The position numbers and the translations under genes were made by a program. A stretch of DNA of 64,000 bases from Rhodanobacter denitrificans (GTDB lineage Bacteria; Pseudomonadota; Gammaproteobacteria; Xanthomonadales; Rhodanobacteraceae), in assembly GCF_000230695.2 (NCBI RefSeq), contig NC_020541.1:2914001-2978000 (forward strand), given 5' to 3'. A model generated the notes under the pieces. It saw only the letters and a list, made by a program, of their open reading frames with translations. It was not told the origin of the DNA and did not search any database. Positions 40,558 through 58,867 of the stretch are shown piece after piece (position 1 is the stretch's first letter; each line of letters begins with the position of its first letter).

Positions 40558-41937
40558 TCAGGCGTAACCGGGTACATGCGGTGCGGCGCCCGCGATGCGT
40601 GGCAGGCTGAAGCTGACCCGCGCGCCGCCCAGCGCGGAGCGGCCGAAGGTCAGCTCGCCGTGGTGCAGGTGGGCGATCGCCTGCGCGATCGACAGGCCCA
40701 GCCCGCTGCCCTCGCCCACGCTGCCTTCGGGGCGGTGGAAGCGCTCGCCCAGCCGCGCCGTGTCGTCCGCCGCAAAGCCGGCCCCGCTGTCGCTGACCTC
40801 CAGGCTGACCCGCCCGTCGTGGCCACCGACGCGCACGTTCACCTGGCCGCGCTCGGGCGCGTGGCGCAGCGCGTTGTCCAGCAGGTTCTGCACCAGGATG
40901 CCGAGCAGGCTGCGGCTGCCCAGCACGAAGTCGTTGCCGTCGTGATCCAGCGACAACTCGATCGAGCGCGCCGCCGCGCGCTCGCTGACGTCGCGCAGGG
41001 CGGCTTCGGCCACGCCTGCCAGGCGCAGCGGACCGGCGTCGTCCAGTTCGGCCAGTTTCTCGACCCGCGCCAGCATCAAGAGCTGGGCCACCAGCCGCTG
41101 CATGCGGTCGAGCGCGTCCTGCGCGCGCTGCAGGTGCCGCGCACGGGCGGCCGCATCGTCACCGCTTCCGGCCAGGTCCAGTTCCAGCCGCAACGCCGCC
41201 AGCGGATGGCGCAGTTCGTGCGCCGCGTCGGCAGTGAAGCGGCGCTCGTGCTCCAGGCTGAGCCGGAGGCGATCGACCAGCTGATCGATCGCCTCGGTGA
41301 ATGGCGCCAACTCGACCGGCACCCGATCGTCGGTGAGCGAGGCCGCCGCCGGATTGGCGCCGGCGGACAGGCTGCGGGTCAGCCGGTGCAGCGGCTTCAG
41401 CCCACTGCGCAGGCCGGCGAATACCGTCGGCGGCACCAGCACCAGCAGCGCCAGCAAGGCCAGCAGCGCCGGCGCCAGCAGCTTGCGCATCAGTTCGTCG
41501 CGTTCGTCCAACGGTGCGCCGACCTGGATCCAGTACTGGTGCTGCGCATCCCAGCGCTGGAATACCCGCCAGCGCCGCCCGTCGTGGCTGATCGAATGGA
41601 AATGCGCGTCGCCCGGATCGAAGCGCAATATCGGCAGCTCGGCACTCTCCACCAACAGCTCGCCGCGGGCATCGCGCAGCACGATCGCCGGCCGCTGGGC
41701 CGTGGCATCCGAGCCGACCAGTTTCCTGTCCGGCGGGCGCACCGCGCCGGCGCGGGCCGCGTCGTCAGGCATCACCGCGAACACGCTGGCGGCGGTGCGC
41801 ACCAGCATCTGGTCGAAGATCTCGTCGACCTCATGCAGGCTGCGCCAGGCCAGCCAGCCGGCGGCGGCGCACCACACCAGCACGATGCCGGCCACCAGCC
41901 GCAGCACCAGCCGCCGGTTGAGCGAGGGGCGGATCAC
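40558..41937 (-). CDS. Sensor histidine kinase (QseC/TctE-like)
   Basis: A 459-residue membrane kinase. The two membrane helices (about 11-31 and 153-175) flank a periplasmic sensor loop, followed by a HAMP-like linker, the H-box AADAAHELRHPLAALRLELD (phosphorylated His240), N-box LVQNLLDNALRHAP, G1 DSGAGF and G2 GSGLGLSIA. The start is GTG at 41937, overlapping the response-regulator stop. It would phosphorylate the regulator encoded just upstream; the signal is unknown, but linkage to cytochrome b561 suggests redox. Confidence 0.93.
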   Translation of the reverse strand: MIRPSLNRRLVLRLVAGIVLVWCAAAGWLAWRSLHEVDEIFDQMLVRTAASVFAVMPDDAARAGAVRPPDRKLVGSDATAQRPAIVLRDARGELLVESAELPILRFDPGDAHFHSISHDGRRWRVFQRWDAQHQYWIQVGAPLDERDELMRKLLAPALLALLALLVLVPPTVFAGLRSGLKPLHRLTRSLSAGANPAAASLTDDRVPVELAPFTEAIDQLVDRLRLSLEHERRFTADAAHELRHPLAALRLELDLAGSGDDAAARARHLQRAQDALDRMQRLVAQLLMLARVEKLAELDDAGPLRLAGVAEAALRDVSERAAARSIELSLDHDGNDFVLGSRSLLGILVQNLLDNALRHAPERGQVNVRVGGHDGRVSLEVSDSGAGFAADDTARLGERFHRPEGSVGEGSGLGLSIAQAIAHLHHGELTFGRSALGGARVSFSLPRIAGAAPHVPGYA

Positions 41938-42608
41938 GCGACCGGGCCGCCGGGCCGGTTGATCGCGTAGCCGATGCCGCGCAAGGTACGGATCCAGCCC
42001 GGACCCAGCTTGTGGCGCAGGTGGTGGATGTGCACTTCGACCGCGTTGCTGGCCACTTCCTGGTCCCAGCCGTACAGGGCCTCCTCCAGCTGGTCGCGCG
42101 AATAGGCCCGCCCGGGATGGCGCACCAGGGTTTCCAGCAGCTGGTATTCGCGCGCGGTCAGCTCCAGCGCGGCACCCTCCAGCGTGGCGGCGCGGGCGAC
42201 CGGGGTGACTTCGAGCCCACCCACGCGGATCGCCGGTTCGAGCTGGCCATCGGCGCGGCGCAGCAAGGCGCGCAGGCGCGCGGCCAGTTCGTCCAGGTGC
42301 ACCGGCTTGACCACGTAATCGTCGGCGCCAGCGTCCAGCCCGGCGACCCGGTCGGCAAGCTCGTCGCGGGCGGTCAGCAGCAGCACCGGGGTGGCGTCGC
42401 GACGCCGGCGCATGCCAGCGATGATGGCCGGCCCACTGCTGCGCGGCAGGTTCCAGTCCAGCACGGCGGCGGCGTAGCTGGTGTCGGCCAGCGCGACGGC
42501 GGCCTGGTTGCCGTCCGTGATCCAGTCCACCGCATAGCCGAGCTGGCGCAGGCCTTCGGCCAGCGCCTGCCCCAGTGCCCGATCGTCTTCGGCTAGCAGG
42601 ATGCGCAT
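41934..42608 (-). CDS. OmpR-family response regulator
   Basis: A 224-residue regulator: receiver domain with Asp8/Asp9, phospho-acceptor Asp51, Thr79 and Lys101, and a C-terminal winged helix with LTAREYQLLETLVRHPGRAYSRDQLEEALYGWDQEVASNAVEVHIHHLRHKLG and RTLRGIGYAI. It is coupled to the kinase downstream and lies 4 bp after the cytochrome gene. In related bacteria this pair is linked to genes for haem proteins (SHP/DHC type) and cytochrome b561. Confidence 0.95.
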   Translation of the reverse strand: MRILLAEDDRALGQALAEGLRQLGYAVDWITDGNQAAVALADTSYAAAVLDWNLPRSSGPAIIAGMRRRRDATPVLLLTARDELADRVAGLDAGADDYVVKPVHLDELAARLRALLRRADGQLEPAIRVGGLEVTPVARAATLEGAALELTAREYQLLETLVRHPGRAYSRDQLEEALYGWDQEVASNAVEVHIHHLRHKLGPGWIRTLRGIGYAINRPGGPVA

Positions 42609-42612
42609 GGCC

Positions 42613-43035
42613 TCATTCTTGTCGCGTGACTGGACGGCTCACTTGACTTGCCGCAAGTCGCGGTGCTTTTCCGCCGGCTGCGGCATCCTGCCCCAGCGCG
42701 CGCTTGCGGCCGTGGATCATCGCGGCAACCAGGTTCTCGCGGTAGTGCACGCTCTCGCCTACTGCCGCCAGCACGTGCACCACGACCAGCCCCAGCACGC
42801 CGTAGGCCAGCAGCTCGTGCAGTTCCTCCAGCCAGGGCGTGCCGAAGAACGCGTCGGTGGTCTGCAGCCAGCCGGTGACGCCCACCAGCAGCACGCCGGC
42901 GAGCAGGGCCAGGATCATCATCGCCGCCGCCGGGTTGTGCCCCAACTGCCGTTGCGAGCGCCCGGCCAGTCGCGCACGCAGGTAATCGCGCACGCGGTGC
43001 GGGCCGGGCACCCAGTCGGCTGTGCGGGGACACAT
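42613..43035 (-). pseudogene. Cytochrome b561-type membrane protein, 5' half removed by prophage insertion
   Basis: The surviving open frame gives TADWVPGPHRVRDYLRARLAG, then LGHNPAAAMMI with two membrane helices (the family's TM3 and TM4, with His in HELLAYGVLGLVVVHVLAAV). The family normally has four helices and about 180 residues; TM1, TM2 and their haem histidines are missing, roughly 70-90 residues. Homology-like sequence begins at about 43,020, where the prophage left end is inferred, and the first five codons of the listed frame read phage sequence. The partner segment should lie beyond the right end of the prophage. The downstream regulator and kinase may have lost their normal promoter. 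Confidence 0.75.
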
Positions 43036-43101
43036 GGTTTGAGGAATCAGGATATCCCGGGATTGGGTGCGATCTCATGGGATGCCGACCGTTGACACAT
43101 G
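43029..43101 (+). repeat. Repeated GACACATG at the prophage left end
   Basis: GACACATG occurs at 43029-43036 and 43094-43101, 65 bases apart. Repeated short motifs near the tip are expected for transposase-binding sites, but 8 bp is short and this is only a candidate. Confidence 0.3.
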
Positions 43102-43120
43102 CAAAAGGAAGAGGGATAAA
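43092..43120 (+). promoter_or_regulatory. Promoter of the left-tip DUF3486 gene
   Basis: TTGACA (43092-43097), 17-bp spacer and GATAAA (43115-43120) form a near-consensus sigma-70 promoter inside the left end, pointing right toward the ATG at 43151. The DNA around it (43100-43150) is clearly AT-richer than the rest of the window. Confidence 0.6.
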
Positions 43121-43150
43121 ACGGGACGAAAAATAAAGGGCGAAAAATGC

Positions 43151-43531
43151 ATGGCACGGACCTCATCTATCTACTCACTGCCCATGAGCGTGCAGGACGC
43201 ACTCGATGAAAGGCTGCGCACGACGGCATATGCCCAGCTCGATGAACATCGCGAGCATCTGACCTCTGAAGGGTACAACATCAGCCGTAGCGCGCTCGGA
43301 AGGCATGCTCAAGCGCTCAGGGCAGCAGATTCGAGCCTGGGAGACCGGCGAGCAAGGGTTGCTGAAATCAAGGCCAAGCCGAAGGGTAAACGAGACGACC
43401 TATTGATGGAGCTCGGACGGCTGCAACTGGCTCAGTCGCGCATCCTGATGCAACTGCACGCGCTGGAGGAAAGCGGGATAGACGCCGACGATGACGCCCT
43501 GGTCGAGGGCATGAACACCACTGCCGCTTAG
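43151..43531 (+). CDS. DUF3486 (Mu gp27-like) protein, extra copy at the prophage left tip
   Basis: A 126-residue protein opening MARTSSIYSLPMSVQDALDE and containing YNISRSALGRHAQAL, the DUF3486/gp27 pattern. The same family appears in the late block at 58316 (183 aa, LPSRSAVGRYSQQV-like), where Mu has it next to the terminase. Here it is isolated, shorter, carries its own promoter and stands outside the repressor, a position with no counterpart in Mu. It may be a cargo gene expressed in the lysogen, perhaps interfering with packaging of a competing phage; that is speculation. Codon use looks less GC-biased than in neighbours. Confidence 0.7.
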   Translation: MARTSSIYSLPMSVQDALDERLRTTAYAQLDEHREHLTSEGYNISRSALGRHAQALRAADSSLGDRRARVAEIKAKPKGKRDDLLMELGRLQLAQSRILMQLHALEESGIDADDDALVEGMNTTAA

Positions 43532-43582
43532 GTTTGCAAAATCGGGCCGAAAACAAGGCGGCGGACACTAGGATTGCAAAAT
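43529..43582 (+). repeat. Direct repeat TAGGNTTGCAAAAT
   Basis: TAGGTTTGCAAAAT (43529-43542) and TAGGATTGCAAAAT (43569-43582) match at 13 of 14 positions, 40 bases apart, between the left-tip gene and the leftward operon. They might be transposase or repressor sites; the second also supplies the T-run of the terminator. Confidence 0.45.
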
Positions 43583-43606
43583 GAAGCCGGCCGCTGCGCC
43601 GGCTTC
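43577..43606 (-). terminator. Terminator of the leftward repressor operon
   Basis: GAAGCCGGC (43583-43591) and GCCGGCTTC (43598-43606) form a perfect 9-bp stem with a 6-base loop. On the minus strand it is followed by ATTTTGC, fitting a rho-independent terminator 30 bases after the 102-residue gene. Confidence 0.65.
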
Positions 43607-43636: not shown

Positions 43637-43945
43637 TCAACGCGCGGGCGGCGAACCTGGTGGATCGCAGGCGGCGTCGAGCGCGGCGCCCAGGTGTTCG
43701 AGACGACCGACCAGCTGCTCCAACTGCTCCAAGTCGAGGCTGGTGATCGCTTCTGCGCCAGCGTTGTAGACGAACGCGTCGAGGTGCGCCTGGAGGCTGT
43801 AGCGCGCGGCGGTCAGCCGGGCGTGCTGCATCAGCGCCTTGCGTCTGGCCGTGCCCAGCGGCCCCTGGCGGCGGTGGATGCGTGGCGTGTCCGGCACCCT
43901 GGCGTCGGCCAGGAGCCTCCTGATGTGCGCGATACGGTCTGACAT
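43637..43945 (-). CDS. Unknown phage protein co-transcribed with the repressor
   Basis: A 102-residue, helical, Arg/Ala/Leu-rich protein (IAHIRRLLADARVPDTPRIHRRQG; then ITSLDLEQLEQLVGRLEHLGAALDAA). It lies 18 bp after the repressor gene on the same strand, so it is expressed in the lysogen. No family is recognised. Genes in this position in transposable phages often influence immunity or exclusion, but no motif here shows that. Confidence 0.6.
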   Translation of the reverse strand: MSDRIAHIRRLLADARVPDTPRIHRRQGPLGTARRKALMQHARLTAARYSLQAHLDAFVYNAGAEAITSLDLEQLEQLVGRLEHLGAALDAACDPPGSPPAR

Positions 43946-43963: not shown

Positions 43964-44464
43964 TCAGGCCGCGAATGCGCGCGCGAAGCGCAACACCTTG
44001 GCCTCCGGCAGCCCCTCCACCAGCAACTCATAGATCAGGGCGACCAGCTCGGCGTGCTTGCCGGGGGGCAGTTCCTTCTCGCCGAGTGCTTCTGCGGCCA
44101 GCTGCAAGGCGATGGTCAGCTCCGCATGTCTCACCGCCTGCGAAGCGCTATCTGATGCGGGACTGGCGGGCGCCTCGTGCATGTCGCCCTCGCCCGTCGC
44201 CAGCCAGTCCAGCCGTGCACCAGCTGCCGCGCAAAGCCGCGCGAGAGCCGTAAACGGGGGTTCGTTCTCCTCCTTGATGTACCGCTGCAGGGCGGCGGAG
44301 GACACGCCCATCACCGTATACGCAGATGTGCGCGTTCCGACCAGGTCAGCCACCTCAGAAATGCGACGTCCGATTCCACGGGCGGGAATCGGACGCAGCG
44401 TCCGATTCGGCAGCGCTGCGTCCGATTCGTCGTAAATACCTGATTTATCTTTGACTTTTCCCAT
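43964..44464 (-). CDS. Phage repressor, helix-turn-helix (Mu c-type role)
   Basis: A 166-residue protein with an HTH of the form VSSAALQRYIKEENEPPFTALARLCAAAGARLDWLATGEG, then a linker and a helical C-terminus (about 105-166) probably for oligomerisation. It is transcribed away from ner, as expected for the lysogenic repressor. The first ~28 codons overlap a cluster of repeated GAATCGGAC and CTCAGATGTGCG motifs; in protein they read DESDAALPNRTLRPIPARG, low in structure. Either the gene overlaps its own operators, or the real start is downstream (an in-frame GTG exists in the EVADLVG segment). Confidence 0.82.
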   Translation of the reverse strand: MGKVKDKSGIYDESDAALPNRTLRPIPARGIGRRISEVADLVGTRTSAYTVMGVSSAALQRYIKEENEPPFTALARLCAAAGARLDWLATGEGDMHEAPASPASDSASQAVRHAELTIALQLAAEALGEKELPPGKHAELVALIYELLVEGLPEAKVLRFARAFAA

Positions 44465-45310: not shown

Positions 45311-45759
45311 ATCGCCGGGCCGTAGGGGCGGCCTATAGCGGCGACATGTTCGAGATCCCGCAGCCGGTGGTGCCGGTGGCAGGCTCCCTGGACTTCCGGT
45401 CGGTGGTCAGCGAGCTGGTCTCGGCCATGCTGGCCGATGCCCACAAGGCCGGCCTGGACCGCCACGAAGTGGCTGCGCGCGCCAGCCGGCTCACCGGCAA
45501 AGACGTCACGAAGAACATGCTCGACGGCTACACCGCGCCGGCGCGCGAAGAGTTCAACTGCCCTCTGTGGCTGTCGCCGGTGCTGGAAATCGTCTGCTGC
45601 AGCACGCCGCTGGCCAACTGGCACGTGGGCGTGCACGGCGGCCGCATGAGTGTCGGCGCCGAGACCCTGGATTCCGAGATCGGCCGTGTCATGCGCGAGC
45701 GCGAGCTGGCGGATGCGCGGCTGCGTGAGCTGAAAGACCTGCGCCGGAGGGTCAAGTGA
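45307..45759 (+). CDS. Early phage protein preceding the transposase, possible DNA-binding
   Basis: A 150-residue protein from GTG 45307 (overlapping the previous stop); an ATG at 45346 would give 137 residues. A helix-turn-helix-like segment is visible (LDRHEVAARASRLTGKDVTKNMLDGYTAPAREEFNCPLWLSPVLEIV), and the C-terminus is a charged coiled coil (DSEIGRVMRERELADARLRELKDLRRR). It ends overlapping the transposase start. Its place between Ner and MuA suggests a transposition accessory. Confidence 0.65.
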   Translation: MNRRAVGAAYSGDMFEIPQPVVPVAGSLDFRSVVSELVSAMLADAHKAGLDRHEVAARASRLTGKDVTKNMLDGYTAPAREEFNCPLWLSPVLEIVCCSTPLANWHVGVHGGRMSVGAETLDSEIGRVMRERELADARLRELKDLRRRVK

Positions 45760-47711
45760 TGGCCGACGGCACGCAGCACGATCGCTGGTACACGGCCGCC
45801 GACCTGGCCGGTTTGCCGGGTCTGCCCAGCTCCGACCGCCGCATCCATTCGCGCGCCGAGCGAGAGAGCTGGCAGCGCCGGCAGCGCGAGCGCGGCAAGG
45901 GCTTCGAATACTCCTTTTCCAGCCTGCCACCGGTCACCCAAGCCGTGCTGCTGTTGCGCGATCGGCCGGCGCCGCTGGCCGCGCGTCGCCGCAACACCCT
46001 GGCGCCCAGCGAGGCGCACCTGCGCAGCGTATGGCAGCGTTACGAAGCCGCGAAGCAATCCATGAAAGACATGGCCGCGATGCGCCTGCAGACGCTGGAC
46101 ACAGTCGCCAGCCTGGTGCGCGGCGGCACGTCGCTGATGGATGCACGTCAGATCGTCGCCGACCAGCTGCAGCGCGAAGGCGTGCGCGGCGGCAGCGCCG
46201 CAAGCATCGCGCGCTGGATGCAGGATGTGGCGCAGGCCGATCGCAAGGACTGGCTGGCGCTTCTGCTGCCGCACTATTCCGGCCGCACCAGCACGGCCGA
46301 GATCGAGCCAGAGGCGTGGGAGCTGTTCAAGGCCGACTACCTGCGCCAGGAACAGCCCACCGCCAGCAGCTGCTACGACCGCCTGGAACGCATCGCCGCC
46401 GCGCGCGGCTGGGAGCTGCCCAGCCTCAAGACCTTCACCCGCCGGATCATCCGCGAGCTGCCGCGCGCCGTGCGCGTGTTGGCGCGCGAGGGCGAAGAGG
46501 CGCTGGCCAAAACCTACCCCGCGCAGGAGCGCGACCGCTCCATGCTGGAGGCGCTGGACGGCGTCAACGCCGACGGCCACCGCTGGGACATCAACGTGCG
46601 GTTCCCGGACGGCAGCATCGGCCGGCCGTGCATCCTAGGCTGGCAGGATCTGGGCACCGGCAAGCTGCTCGCCTGGCGCCTGGGCGACAACGAAAACAGC
46701 GACATGGTGCGGCTGAGCTTCGGCGACATGTTGCGCGCATACGGCGTGCCCGGCAGCGTGTACCTGGACAACGGCCGCGCGTTCGCCAGCAAGTGGATGA
46801 CCGGCGGCACGCCGAATCGCTACCGCTTCAAGATCCGCGAGGAAGACCCCACCGGCCTGATCACCACACTGGTCGGCGCAGACAACGTGCACTGGGTCAC
46901 CCCGTATCACGGCCAAGCCAAGCCGATCGAGCGCATGTGGCGCGACTTCTGCGACCGCATTGCCAAGCACCCGGCGTTCGCGGGCGCGTACGTCGGCAAC
47001 AGTGTCGCCAACAAGCCCGAGAACTACGGCAGCCGCGTGGTCGAGTGGGCCGAGTTCGAGCGTGTGGTGACCAGCGAGATCCACGCGCACAACGCCCGCA
47101 CCGGGCGGCAGCTGAAATCCTGCGCCGGCCGCAGCTTCGACGCGACATTCGCCGCGAGCTACGCCCGCATCATCGTGCGCAAGGTCAGCGACGAGCAGCT
47201 GCGCCTGCTGCTGCTTGCCGCCGAGGCGGTCAAAGCGGACCCGATCACCGGCAGTGTCCATCTGGCCGGCAACCGCTACTGGACCGAAGCGCTCAGCGAG
47301 CATGCCGGCCGCAAGCTGGTGCTGCGCATCGACCCCTGGCACCTGCAGGGCGTGGCGCACGTGTACGCGCTGGACGGTACGTACATCGCCGCCGCCGAGT
47401 GCACCGCCGCGGTCGGCTTCGCCGACGTCAACGCCGCCCGCGAACACGCGCGCGGGAAGAAGCAATACAAGCGTGCGGCCAAGGACATGCTCGCCGCCGA
47501 ACGGCTGATGGACGCGGCCAGTGTCGCCGCGCAGCTGCCCGACATGACACCGCCCGACGCCGTCGCCGCCGGCGTGCTCGCGCCGGTGTTCGGCCTGCAC
47601 GCGAAGAAACCCGAACCCGCACCCGCACGCGCCACCGGCAGCGAAGGGCCCAGCGCCCTCGACCTGCTGATGTTCGAGCGCGCGCAACGCATGAAGGAGA
47701 ACCAGCTTTAG
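45759..47711 (+). CDS. MuA-like DDE transposase
   Basis: A 650-residue transposase that joins phage ends to target DNA for integration and replicative transposition. It opens with a Mu-type DNA-binding domain (WYTAADLAGLPGLPSSDRRI), followed by end-binding subdomains and the RNase H-like core. The acidic triad is Asp272 (GVNADGHRW), Asp337 (YLDNGRAF) and Glu391 (KPIERMWRDF), very near Mu's 269/336/392. The C-terminal beta-barrel and basic tail, which contacts MuB, follow. ATG 45759 has GGAGG eight bases upstream. Confidence 0.97.
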   Translation: MADGTQHDRWYTAADLAGLPGLPSSDRRIHSRAERESWQRRQRERGKGFEYSFSSLPPVTQAVLLLRDRPAPLAARRRNTLAPSEAHLRSVWQRYEAAKQSMKDMAAMRLQTLDTVASLVRGGTSLMDARQIVADQLQREGVRGGSAASIARWMQDVAQADRKDWLALLLPHYSGRTSTAEIEPEAWELFKADYLRQEQPTASSCYDRLERIAAARGWELPSLKTFTRRIIRELPRAVRVLAREGEEALAKTYPAQERDRSMLEALDGVNADGHRWDINVRFPDGSIGRPCILGWQDLGTGKLLAWRLGDNENSDMVRLSFGDMLRAYGVPGSVYLDNGRAFASKWMTGGTPNRYRFKIREEDPTGLITTLVGADNVHWVTPYHGQAKPIERMWRDFCDRIAKHPAFAGAYVGNSVANKPENYGSRVVEWAEFERVVTSEIHAHNARTGRQLKSCAGRSFDATFAASYARIIVRKVSDEQLRLLLLAAEAVKADPITGSVHLAGNRYWTEALSEHAGRKLVLRIDPWHLQGVAHVYALDGTYIAAAECTAAVGFADVNAAREHARGKKQYKRAAKDMLAAERLMDAASVAAQLPDMTPPDAVAAGVLAPVFGLHAKKPEPAPARATGSEGPSALDLLMFERAQRMKENQL

Positions 47712-55295: not shown

Positions 55296-55329
55296 GCCGG
55301 CGGGGCTGATCCCCTGCAGTCCCGCCGGC
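55296..55329 (+). promoter_or_regulatory. Hairpin 2 in the mor-holin intergenic region
   Basis: GCCGGCGGG (55296-55304) pairs with CCCGCCGGC (55321-55329), 9 bp around a 16-base loop, immediately after hairpin 1. Together they fill much of the 131-bp gap ahead of the lysis genes. Confidence 0.5.
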
Positions 55330-58315: not shown

Positions 58316-58867
58316 ATGCCGCGCGCCTCCACCATCAAGCGCCTGCCCGACGAGCAGCGCCGCTACCTGGAAAAGCTGATCCGCGAGGATCGCCACACCC
58401 TGGACGAAATCCTCGCCCAGGTGCGCGAGCGATTCCCCGCGGCCCAGGTGCCCAGCCGCAGCGCGGTTGGCCGCTACAGCCAGCAGGTGAACGAGCTGGC
58501 CGGCCGCATGCGCGACATCCAGGCCGCCAGCACCGCGCTGGTCACCGAGCTGGGCGAAGACCCGAACGACCGCGCCGGCCAGCTGCTGGTGCAGGCGGTG
58601 ACCACGCTGGCCACCGACGCCGCGCTGAAAGCGCAGAACGCCGACGACGGCGTGTCGATCAAGCAGATCGGCGAGCTGGCCCGCGGCGCCCGCGCCGTGC
58701 TGCAAGCGCGCAAGATGAGCCTGGCCGAACGGCAGGAGATCGCGCGCCTGGCGCGCGAGCAGCTGCAGGCGGAGCAGGCCGAGGCGCTCAAGGGCGTGGT
58801 GCAGGCCGGCGGCATGACCGCCGCCACCGCCGAGACGATCCGCAAGCAGATCCTGGGCATGGCATGA
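58316..58867 (+). CDS. Mu gp27-like protein (DUF3486), probable small terminase
   Basis: A 183-residue protein of the DUF3486 type in the normal late position, just before the large terminase and overlapping it by 4 bp. The N-terminus has MPRASTIKRLPDEQRRYLEKLI and the HTH-like VPSRSAVGRYSQQV; a long helical part follows. Position suggests a small terminase that recognises phage ends. A short paralogue lies at 43151. Confidence 0.82.
   Translation: MPRASTIKRLPDEQRRYLEKLIREDRHTLDEILAQVRERFPAAQVPSRSAVGRYSQQVNELAGRMRDIQAASTALVTELGEDPNDRAGQLLVQAVTTLATDAALKAQNADDGVSIKQIGELARGARAVLQARKMSLAERQEIARLAREQLQAEQAEALKGVVQAGGMTAATAETIRKQILGMA

Follow-up and report, generated by a model that had tools for sequence, protein, structure and literature searches.

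The 64,000-nucleotide stretch of Rhodanobacter denitrificans DNA analysed here (contig NC_020541.1, positions 2,914,001 to 2,978,000; hereafter the window) carries a Mu-like prophage with two genes of the Gp27 type, a canonical small-terminase gene and a second, short gene at the left tip of the phage. Why should a terminase-type DNA-binding protein be encoded there, 15 kb away from the large terminase? The comparisons below place the whole short gene inside the transposition left end, between the transposase-like sites L1 and L2, and tentatively suggest a protein that reads a nearby repeat and controls or marks the start of packaging.

Identity of the short Gp27-type gene

The existence of a second, short Gp27-type gene, as the original prediction had it, was confirmed. 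The open reading frame (ORF) starts at 43151, 130 base pairs (bp) inside the prophage left end at 43021, and its product of 126 amino acids (aa) matches PF11985 (Phage_Mu_Gp27) at 9.1e-15 and 55.9 bits, above the curated cut-off of 28, and the small-terminase family phrog_426 at 2.1e-15. Its position at the left tip, outside the repressor, also stood; position 43092, from which the gene had been made to run, is the start of a −35-like hexamer. The match to PF11985 is partial, covering model positions 1-105 of 173, and the full-length architecture of the family is absent. Small (TerS) and large (TerL) terminase genes are usually, not universally, close together, according to the passages available from PMC9611059. 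The canonical copy at 58316 is followed by a large-terminase ORF (phrog_2, 1.9e-36); the short gene lacks this adjacency. The 126-aa protein also matches phrog_15000, a family of 109 aa with unannotated function, at 3e-9 over profile positions 3-107 of 109, with a lower score than to phrog_426 (38 vs 58 bits).

These two genes are the only PF11985 matches in the source genome at E 0.001. That one copy per genome is the norm, as had been claimed, is borne out by the relatives: the family occurs in 14 of 230 genomes of the taxonomic family (13 above the cut-off), two copies being present only in the source genome, and in 19 of 23 virus records of relatives, two of which have two. The short protein is 26% identical to the canonical Gp27 of its own phage, which rules out a recent duplicate of that gene, and the recognition segments of the two are alike. 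Searches of ncbifam gave nothing useful, the best match among solved-structure sequences had an E of 0.2, and a scan of genome contigs found no relative, the source genome being perhaps outside the scanned set.

The promoter that had been proposed is present as a sequence, TTGACA (43092-43097, 6/6 consensus positions), a 17-bp spacer and GATAAA (43115-43120, 4/6). Of 500 dinucleotide shuffles, 1.6% scored as high as its 10/12 or higher. A consensus promoter scanner did not call it, because its −10 hexamer does not end in T. A −35-like hexamer lies at the equivalent place in two relatives (TCGACA in L006, TTGACT in L068). Taken singly, the best promoter scores elsewhere are within chance, being reached by 8.4% of shuffles for L006, 7.6% for L068, 20% for the Vibrio phage martha and 67% for V. 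injensis.

A whole gene between transposition sites L1 and L2

The right end of the prophage contains GGACACTTGGTTTGC[AG]AA twice, in inverted orientation, and its left-end version at 43027 corresponds to L1. Two more versions lie behind the short gene, L2 (core 43533) and L3 (core 43573). Since L1 precedes the gene and L2 and L3 follow it, the gene lies entirely within the L1-L2 spacer. The left-tip placement given by the original prediction was correct, and the location within the transposition end itself had been overlooked. L1, L2 and L3 are putative transposase sites, recognised by motif and spacing.

Where the gene is present, the L1-L2 distance is 495-496 bp in the window clade (496 bp, followed by 40 bp between L2 and L3, in both L006 and L068) and 491-492 bp in the Vibrio phages with a homologue, in which L2 and L3 are 41 bp apart. 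Without the gene, the distance is 108 bp in L055, L052 and L082, and in Mu the two distances are 105 and 40 bp, as measured by CGAAA cores. An L2-L3 spacing of 40-41 bp is thus common to the window, its relatives and Mu. Among the gene-less phages, L055 and L052 have transposases 77-78% identical to that of the window. The records of L005 and L069 start exactly at the ATG of the short gene, with L2 and L3 seen behind it. In martha, V. tasmaniensis and V. injensis the short gene again lies outside the repressor (S24-type in both genomes tested), and motifs resembling martha's right-end sites flank it on both sides; martha and V. tasmaniensis are near-identical in the left-end region. The same layout is thus found in two phage lineages that are distant from each other.

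Eleven left ends were resolved (window, L006, L068, L055, L052, L082, martha, V. tasmaniensis, V. injensis, Mu and D108), and six of them hold the short gene. The survey of the same position in other transposable phages, which the original prediction had called for, thus found it conserved there, and homologues at the same place in relatives rule out an insertion unique to the window phage. The tip of L037 starts at the repressor stop, and L061, L090 and L091 lay outside the site scan; no site pair was found in L053, L056-L060, L062-L067 or L083-L089 (single matches with 5 mismatches in L063 and L065). As a separate observation, a small hypothetical gene, RcapMu1 (44 aa; L151:50-184), lies just within attL1 of RcapMu and contains TTGACA.

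A compact family under selection

The initial search yielded six proteins, namely the window protein from a later start and five others at 50-56% identity. A family profile was then built from ten short proteins and run at E <=1e-4 against 4884 candidates, proteins of canonical length being allowed. It matched 37, of which 35 have 105-126 aa, one 72 aa and one 173 aa, with Vibrio and Shewanella among the named sources. An E-L-G-x-L motif in the C-terminal helix is common to all ten aligned shorts; by eye, it is missing from P0036, one of the 35. By profile and motif, the short gene is a member of a compact family that combines a Gp27-type helix-turn-helix (HTH) with a C-terminal 'ELGxL' helix. 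To call it truncated, as had been done, is misleading, short length being the rule of this family.

Part of the family is already contained in phrog_15000, to which VPCG_00050 of martha 12B12 belongs (3.5e-57). The shorts of L005, L006, L068 and L069 match it at E 1e-15 to 5e-11, above phrog_426, whereas KP12_299, a short protein from Klebsiella phage KP12, and the window protein show the opposite order. The window gene shares the location of that family, at the left tip and outside the repressor, with martha, V. injensis and V. tasmaniensis.

Ratios of nonsynonymous to synonymous divergence (dN/dS) were computed pairwise by the Nei-Gojobori method, and the values are rough. They amount to 0.107 for L006-L069, 0.138 for V. 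tasmaniensis-V. injensis and 0.186 for window-L006, the remaining window-clade pairs ranging from 0.22 to 0.53, with the maximum in L068-L069, an apparently recombinant pair; dS exceeds 1 in all but one of these pairs, and several cross-lineage pairs are saturated. The short gene is apparently under purifying selection. The shorts of L068 (4115-4444) and L069 (1-330) are identical near the C-terminus and strongly divergent before it, which suggests recombination within the gene.

The predicted structure suggests a homeodomain-like fold for the N-terminal 66 residues, although the Z score could also reflect a common arrangement. In a second structural look, homeodomains ranked first and terminases aligned only at a root-mean-square deviation above 10 Å. 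By sequence, the short protein keeps the Gp27-type HTH, its own short C-terminal helix replacing the rest of the terminase subunit.

Inheritance with the left end

The transposases of relatives are 77-86% identical to that of the window, while those of L005, L068 and L069 are 37% identical, and the short gene is therefore common to differing transposase types. For the canonical Gp27 of L006, alignment to its counterparts in the window and L069 is limited to 28 aa; these two counterparts are 83% identical to each other, and between the shorts of L006 and L069 only 12% of nonsynonymous sites differ. On these alignments, the short gene travels with the left end and not with the terminase. Its presence takes three changes on the transposase tree, two or more of which are forced, and its clustering is no greater than with shuffled labels; this pattern may reflect a gain with losses or an exchange of left ends.

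Other short Gp27 genes occupy other places. The last phage gene in E. coli strain 571 lies behind mor and encodes 109 aa annotated as 'phage protein Gp27 family protein'; some 140 bp farther on comes a DedA gene without its start. This region occurs at >=80% coverage in 6 of 5426 E. coli genomes, and the Klebsiella phage KP12 clone KP12_2 terminates with the same gene. In G259 the short gene lies behind a Mor gene (PF08765), near an apparent prophage edge, and in G568 it is flanked by a Ner-like gene (PF13693) and by a transposase of the Mu type (PF09299). The proteins of G568 and martha fall below the PF11985 cut-off (E 0.0018 and 0.0016). Because they are located among early genes, lytic expression is expected for the shorts of E. 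coli, G259 and G568.

A repeat as candidate packaging signal

Upstream of the short gene, the window contains a pair of GGGA[TC] repeats phased by 10 bp, GGGA[TC]-N5-GGGA[TC], at 43113-43127 (GGGATAAAACGGGAC). Ten spacers between L1 and the gene (or L2) contain, as a descriptive count, 24 copies of GGGAT on the + strand against 6.5 expected, the maximum in 1000 shuffles being 14; these spacers include near relatives, and that of L052 has GGGAC only. The paired repeat was found in 9 of the 11 resolved ends (window, L006, L068, L055, L052, L082, martha, V. tasmaniensis and Mu). With both strands counted, it occurs once per genome in Mu (36,717 bp), where the sole copy, GGGATCTGATGGGAT, lies in the L1-L2 spacer (L148:53-67), and in martha (33,277 bp); the window prophage has one additional copy at 55323 (-), and B3 has a copy at bp 45. 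The repeat is overlapped by the −10 hexamer GATAAA in the window and by TATAAT in martha. When the short protein was compared by eye with the canonical one from the same phage, no covariation of the recognition-helix residues was seen.

Proposed role and alternative explanations

The reading we favour, a tentative one that we would not yet call probable, is that of a left-end-specific short Gp27-type DNA-binding protein that reads the repeats and controls or marks the packaging site pac and the start of packaging. The short protein would bind the GGGA[TC] repeats located a short way before its start codon, the binding would repress its own promoter, and the bound protein would occupy or mark pac, so that packaging proceeds from the left end at the right time. 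The terminase might be held off until replication titrates the short protein, or the short protein might recruit a Gp27/TerL pair of differing specificity. Since the recognition segments of the short and canonical proteins are alike, binding of both to one element is the simplest reading. Groenen and van de Putte (1985) reportedly mapped Mu pac to an interval that matches the left-end spacer upstream of the short gene's start. Mu-like packaging begins with a first cut in host DNA outside one end, followed by headful filling (passages of PMC5557969), and pac of P22 lies within terS (passages of PMC9611059); for these reasons we favour a left-end product that acts as repressor of its own promoter and either marks or masks the point where packaging begins. 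Beyond an HTH protein encoded in the L1-L2 spacer, every step is what we infer.

A wider version appears doubtful to us, though it deserves to be stated. In two lineages, a dedicated short terminase-type protein would sit in the transposition end, atop the packaging start, and read GGGA[TC]-N5-GGGA[TC]; this element would be a pac common to phages from Mu to those studied here, and the protein a left-end-inherited adaptor or governor allowing terminase swaps while the packaging start is kept.

Several results weigh against a role in packaging from this end. Gene-less relatives and Mu manage without the short protein, which is therefore not needed for packaging in general. The repeat is incomplete in D108, a close relative of Mu (second half only), and in V. 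injensis (one mismatch), and no exact copy was found in the examined parts of D3112 (2.5 kb) and RcapMu (3 kb), in phiSHP3, KP12_2, the E. coli 571 region or G259; moreover, the motif was picked post hoc and its statistics are descriptive only. The Vibrio L2 and L3 were recognised by short motifs, and in 20 further loci, with tips mostly unresolved, no short Gp27 turned up in a rough motif search of the 3.2 kb that precede the transposase. The structure model is of moderate quality (predicted local distance difference test 77.8, predicted template-modelling score 0.51), and Foldseek gave no significant match (best E 1.5; homeodomains and the G20C/P74-26 small terminases are listed, all at E >1).

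Superinfection exclusion, the function put forward in the original prediction, in which short Gp27 made by the lysogen from the gene's own promoter would occupy the pac of incoming relatives or poison their Gp27 rings and so block packaging, is unlikely. The promoter-like sequence outside the repressor and the shared Gp27 HTH fit it, and patchy presence in close relatives would suit an arms-race gene. The fixed site in two lineages is, however, unlike variable cargo, and kin behind mor, or between a Ner-like gene and a transposase, disfavour a purely lysogenic role; that no defence model of PADLOC (2023 library) was matched weighs little. Because the gene goes with the left end and not with the terminase, and because early operons hold some of its kin, we do not favour exclusion. 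Under the packaging reading, any exclusion of related phages would follow as a side effect of that binding.

Slightly less likely is a transposition-end factor that binds or shapes the lengthened L1-L2 spacer, or hinders transposase binding in the lysogen. HU shapes this spacer in Mu, the gene sits between L1 and L2, and the L1-L2 length is near-constant in two lineages despite gene lengths of 109-126 aa. This constancy is explicable by plain homology, the window-clade proteins aligning without internal gaps; the family kinship is with a packaging protein, and gene-less relatives with closely similar transposases do without the factor. To be rated just as low is a transcription regulator of the repressor or early region that uses the Gp27-type HTH and is unrelated to packaging: an HTH with a short helix would fit a dimeric regulator, and the repressor and Ner are neighbours, yet the short gene and the repressor gene face each other across a hairpin, and the repeats lie at the short gene's own start and are also present in Mu and in phages that lack the gene. 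That the gene is a moron or relic with no role in the phage is very improbable, since, although the gene is missing from close relatives, 35 of 37 matches fall into one length class and the dN/dS of the best pairs (0.11-0.19, albeit with dS >1 and other window-clade pairs up to 0.53) led us to reject the degraded, unconserved relic named at the outset as a refutation.

Prophage organisation

The prophage spans 43021 to window coordinate 82807 (39,787 bp) and is of the Mu type: a 5-bp target duplication, TCGGC, lies on both flanks (left copy 43016-43020), the termini TGTG...TACA form inverted TG..CA ends, the right one at L036:3808, and the transposase is Mu-type (PF02914). It splits a host cytochrome b561 gene into halves (42613-43035 and L036:3610-4035), PF01292 being matched in both. 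The features of the left part are collected in Table 1.

Table 1. Features of the prophage discussed in the text, in window coordinates.
Feature	Position	Strand	Basis
Prophage left end, TGTG start, with first transposase-like site L1 (GGGACACATGGTTTGAGG, core 43038)	43021..43047	+	duplication, inverted motif vs right end, site scan
GGGA[TC] repeats at 43059, 43079, 43113 and 43123; candidate pac/Gp27-binding element	43059..43127	+	motif comparison, inferred role
Promoter-like TTGACA-N17-GATAAA, −10 overlapping the repeat pair	43092..43120	+	sequence
Short Gp27-type gene, 126 aa; homeodomain-like HTH (residues 1-66) and C-terminal helix (81-107)	43151..43531	+	profiles, alignment, predicted structure
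Transposase-like sites L2 (core 43533, overlaps stop codon) and L3 (43562-43580, core 43573)	43523..43582	+	site scan; spacing as in relatives and Mu
GC-rich hairpin GAAGCCGGCC..GCCGGCTTC	43583..43606	.	also in L006, L068, L005
Small accessory gene between short gene and repressor	43637..43945	-	position
Repressor, HTH, phrog_3037 (8e-9)	43964..44464	-	profile match
Ner-like winged HTH, PF13693	44577..44933	+	profile match
Mu-type transposase A, PF02914 (2.2e-50)	45759..47711	+	profile match
Canonical Gp27/small terminase, 183 aa	58316..58867	+	profile match

The hairpin behind L3 is not a typical terminator, because no T-run follows it in the window. It is present in relatives both with and without the short gene, with a T-run behind it in the gene-less L055 and L052. 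The accessory gene has no family match, nor have the genes at the equivalent place in L005, L006 and L068. In L069 (330-775) the accessory gene is, by eye, directly joined to the ner-like gene and the repressor is missing, which may reflect loss by deletion, a lytic variant or a chimeric assembly. On the host side, the split cytochrome gene adjoins a histidine kinase and a response regulator, read leftward (40558-43035). In Vibrio injensis (L143:4999-5998) the Mu-like prophage begins right next to a cas1 gene (PF01867).

Relation to known systems and significance

The window protein shares with Mu Gp27 (PF11985, phrog_426) the N-terminal HTH over the first ~105 profile positions, but it lacks the C-terminal part and is encoded away from TerL. 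With phrog_15000 (martha VPCG_00050) it has in common a similar length, the HTH and ELGxL helix and the left-tip location, yet it is only 26% identical to the martha protein. KP12_299, of the E. coli/Klebsiella BcepMu-type phages, is likewise a Gp27-type HTH protein (109 aa) encoded by the last gene before the phage tip, in the opposite orientation, behind mor and, by eye, without the ELGxL helix. In P22, too, the packaging start falls within a gene for a DNA-binding protein of the terminase type (passages of PMC9611059); there the gene encodes a full small terminase, whereas here a separate short protein would accompany a putative pac. The order L1, L2, L3 and the L2-L3 spacing of 40 bp are those of Mu attL, where L1 and L2 enclose no gene; in the record of D108, sites are annotated at 11-27 and 156-172.

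The libraries and records examined label the short family as an unknown PHROG, 'hypothetical protein' or DUF3486/Gp27 family protein. Among open-licence papers of PubMed Central (PMC) on this family, Mu packaging, Mu-like left ends and martha, covered mostly by title and the opening of the abstract, none was recognised as describing a short Gp27 in a phage end; the passages available from PMC9239132 and PMC2628397 do not mention the short family, and those on martha-like prophage genes in V. parahaemolyticus CHN25 (PMC10855970, PMC7756092) established no link to it. Within this literature, both the gene between L1 and L2 and the GGGA[TC] repeat appear to be new.

To our knowledge, the recognition of the packaging start by Mu-like phages is poorly defined. 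The repeat and the conserved terminase-type gene are concrete candidates for the packaging signal and its reader, respectively, and a transposition end can evidently hold a whole conserved gene.
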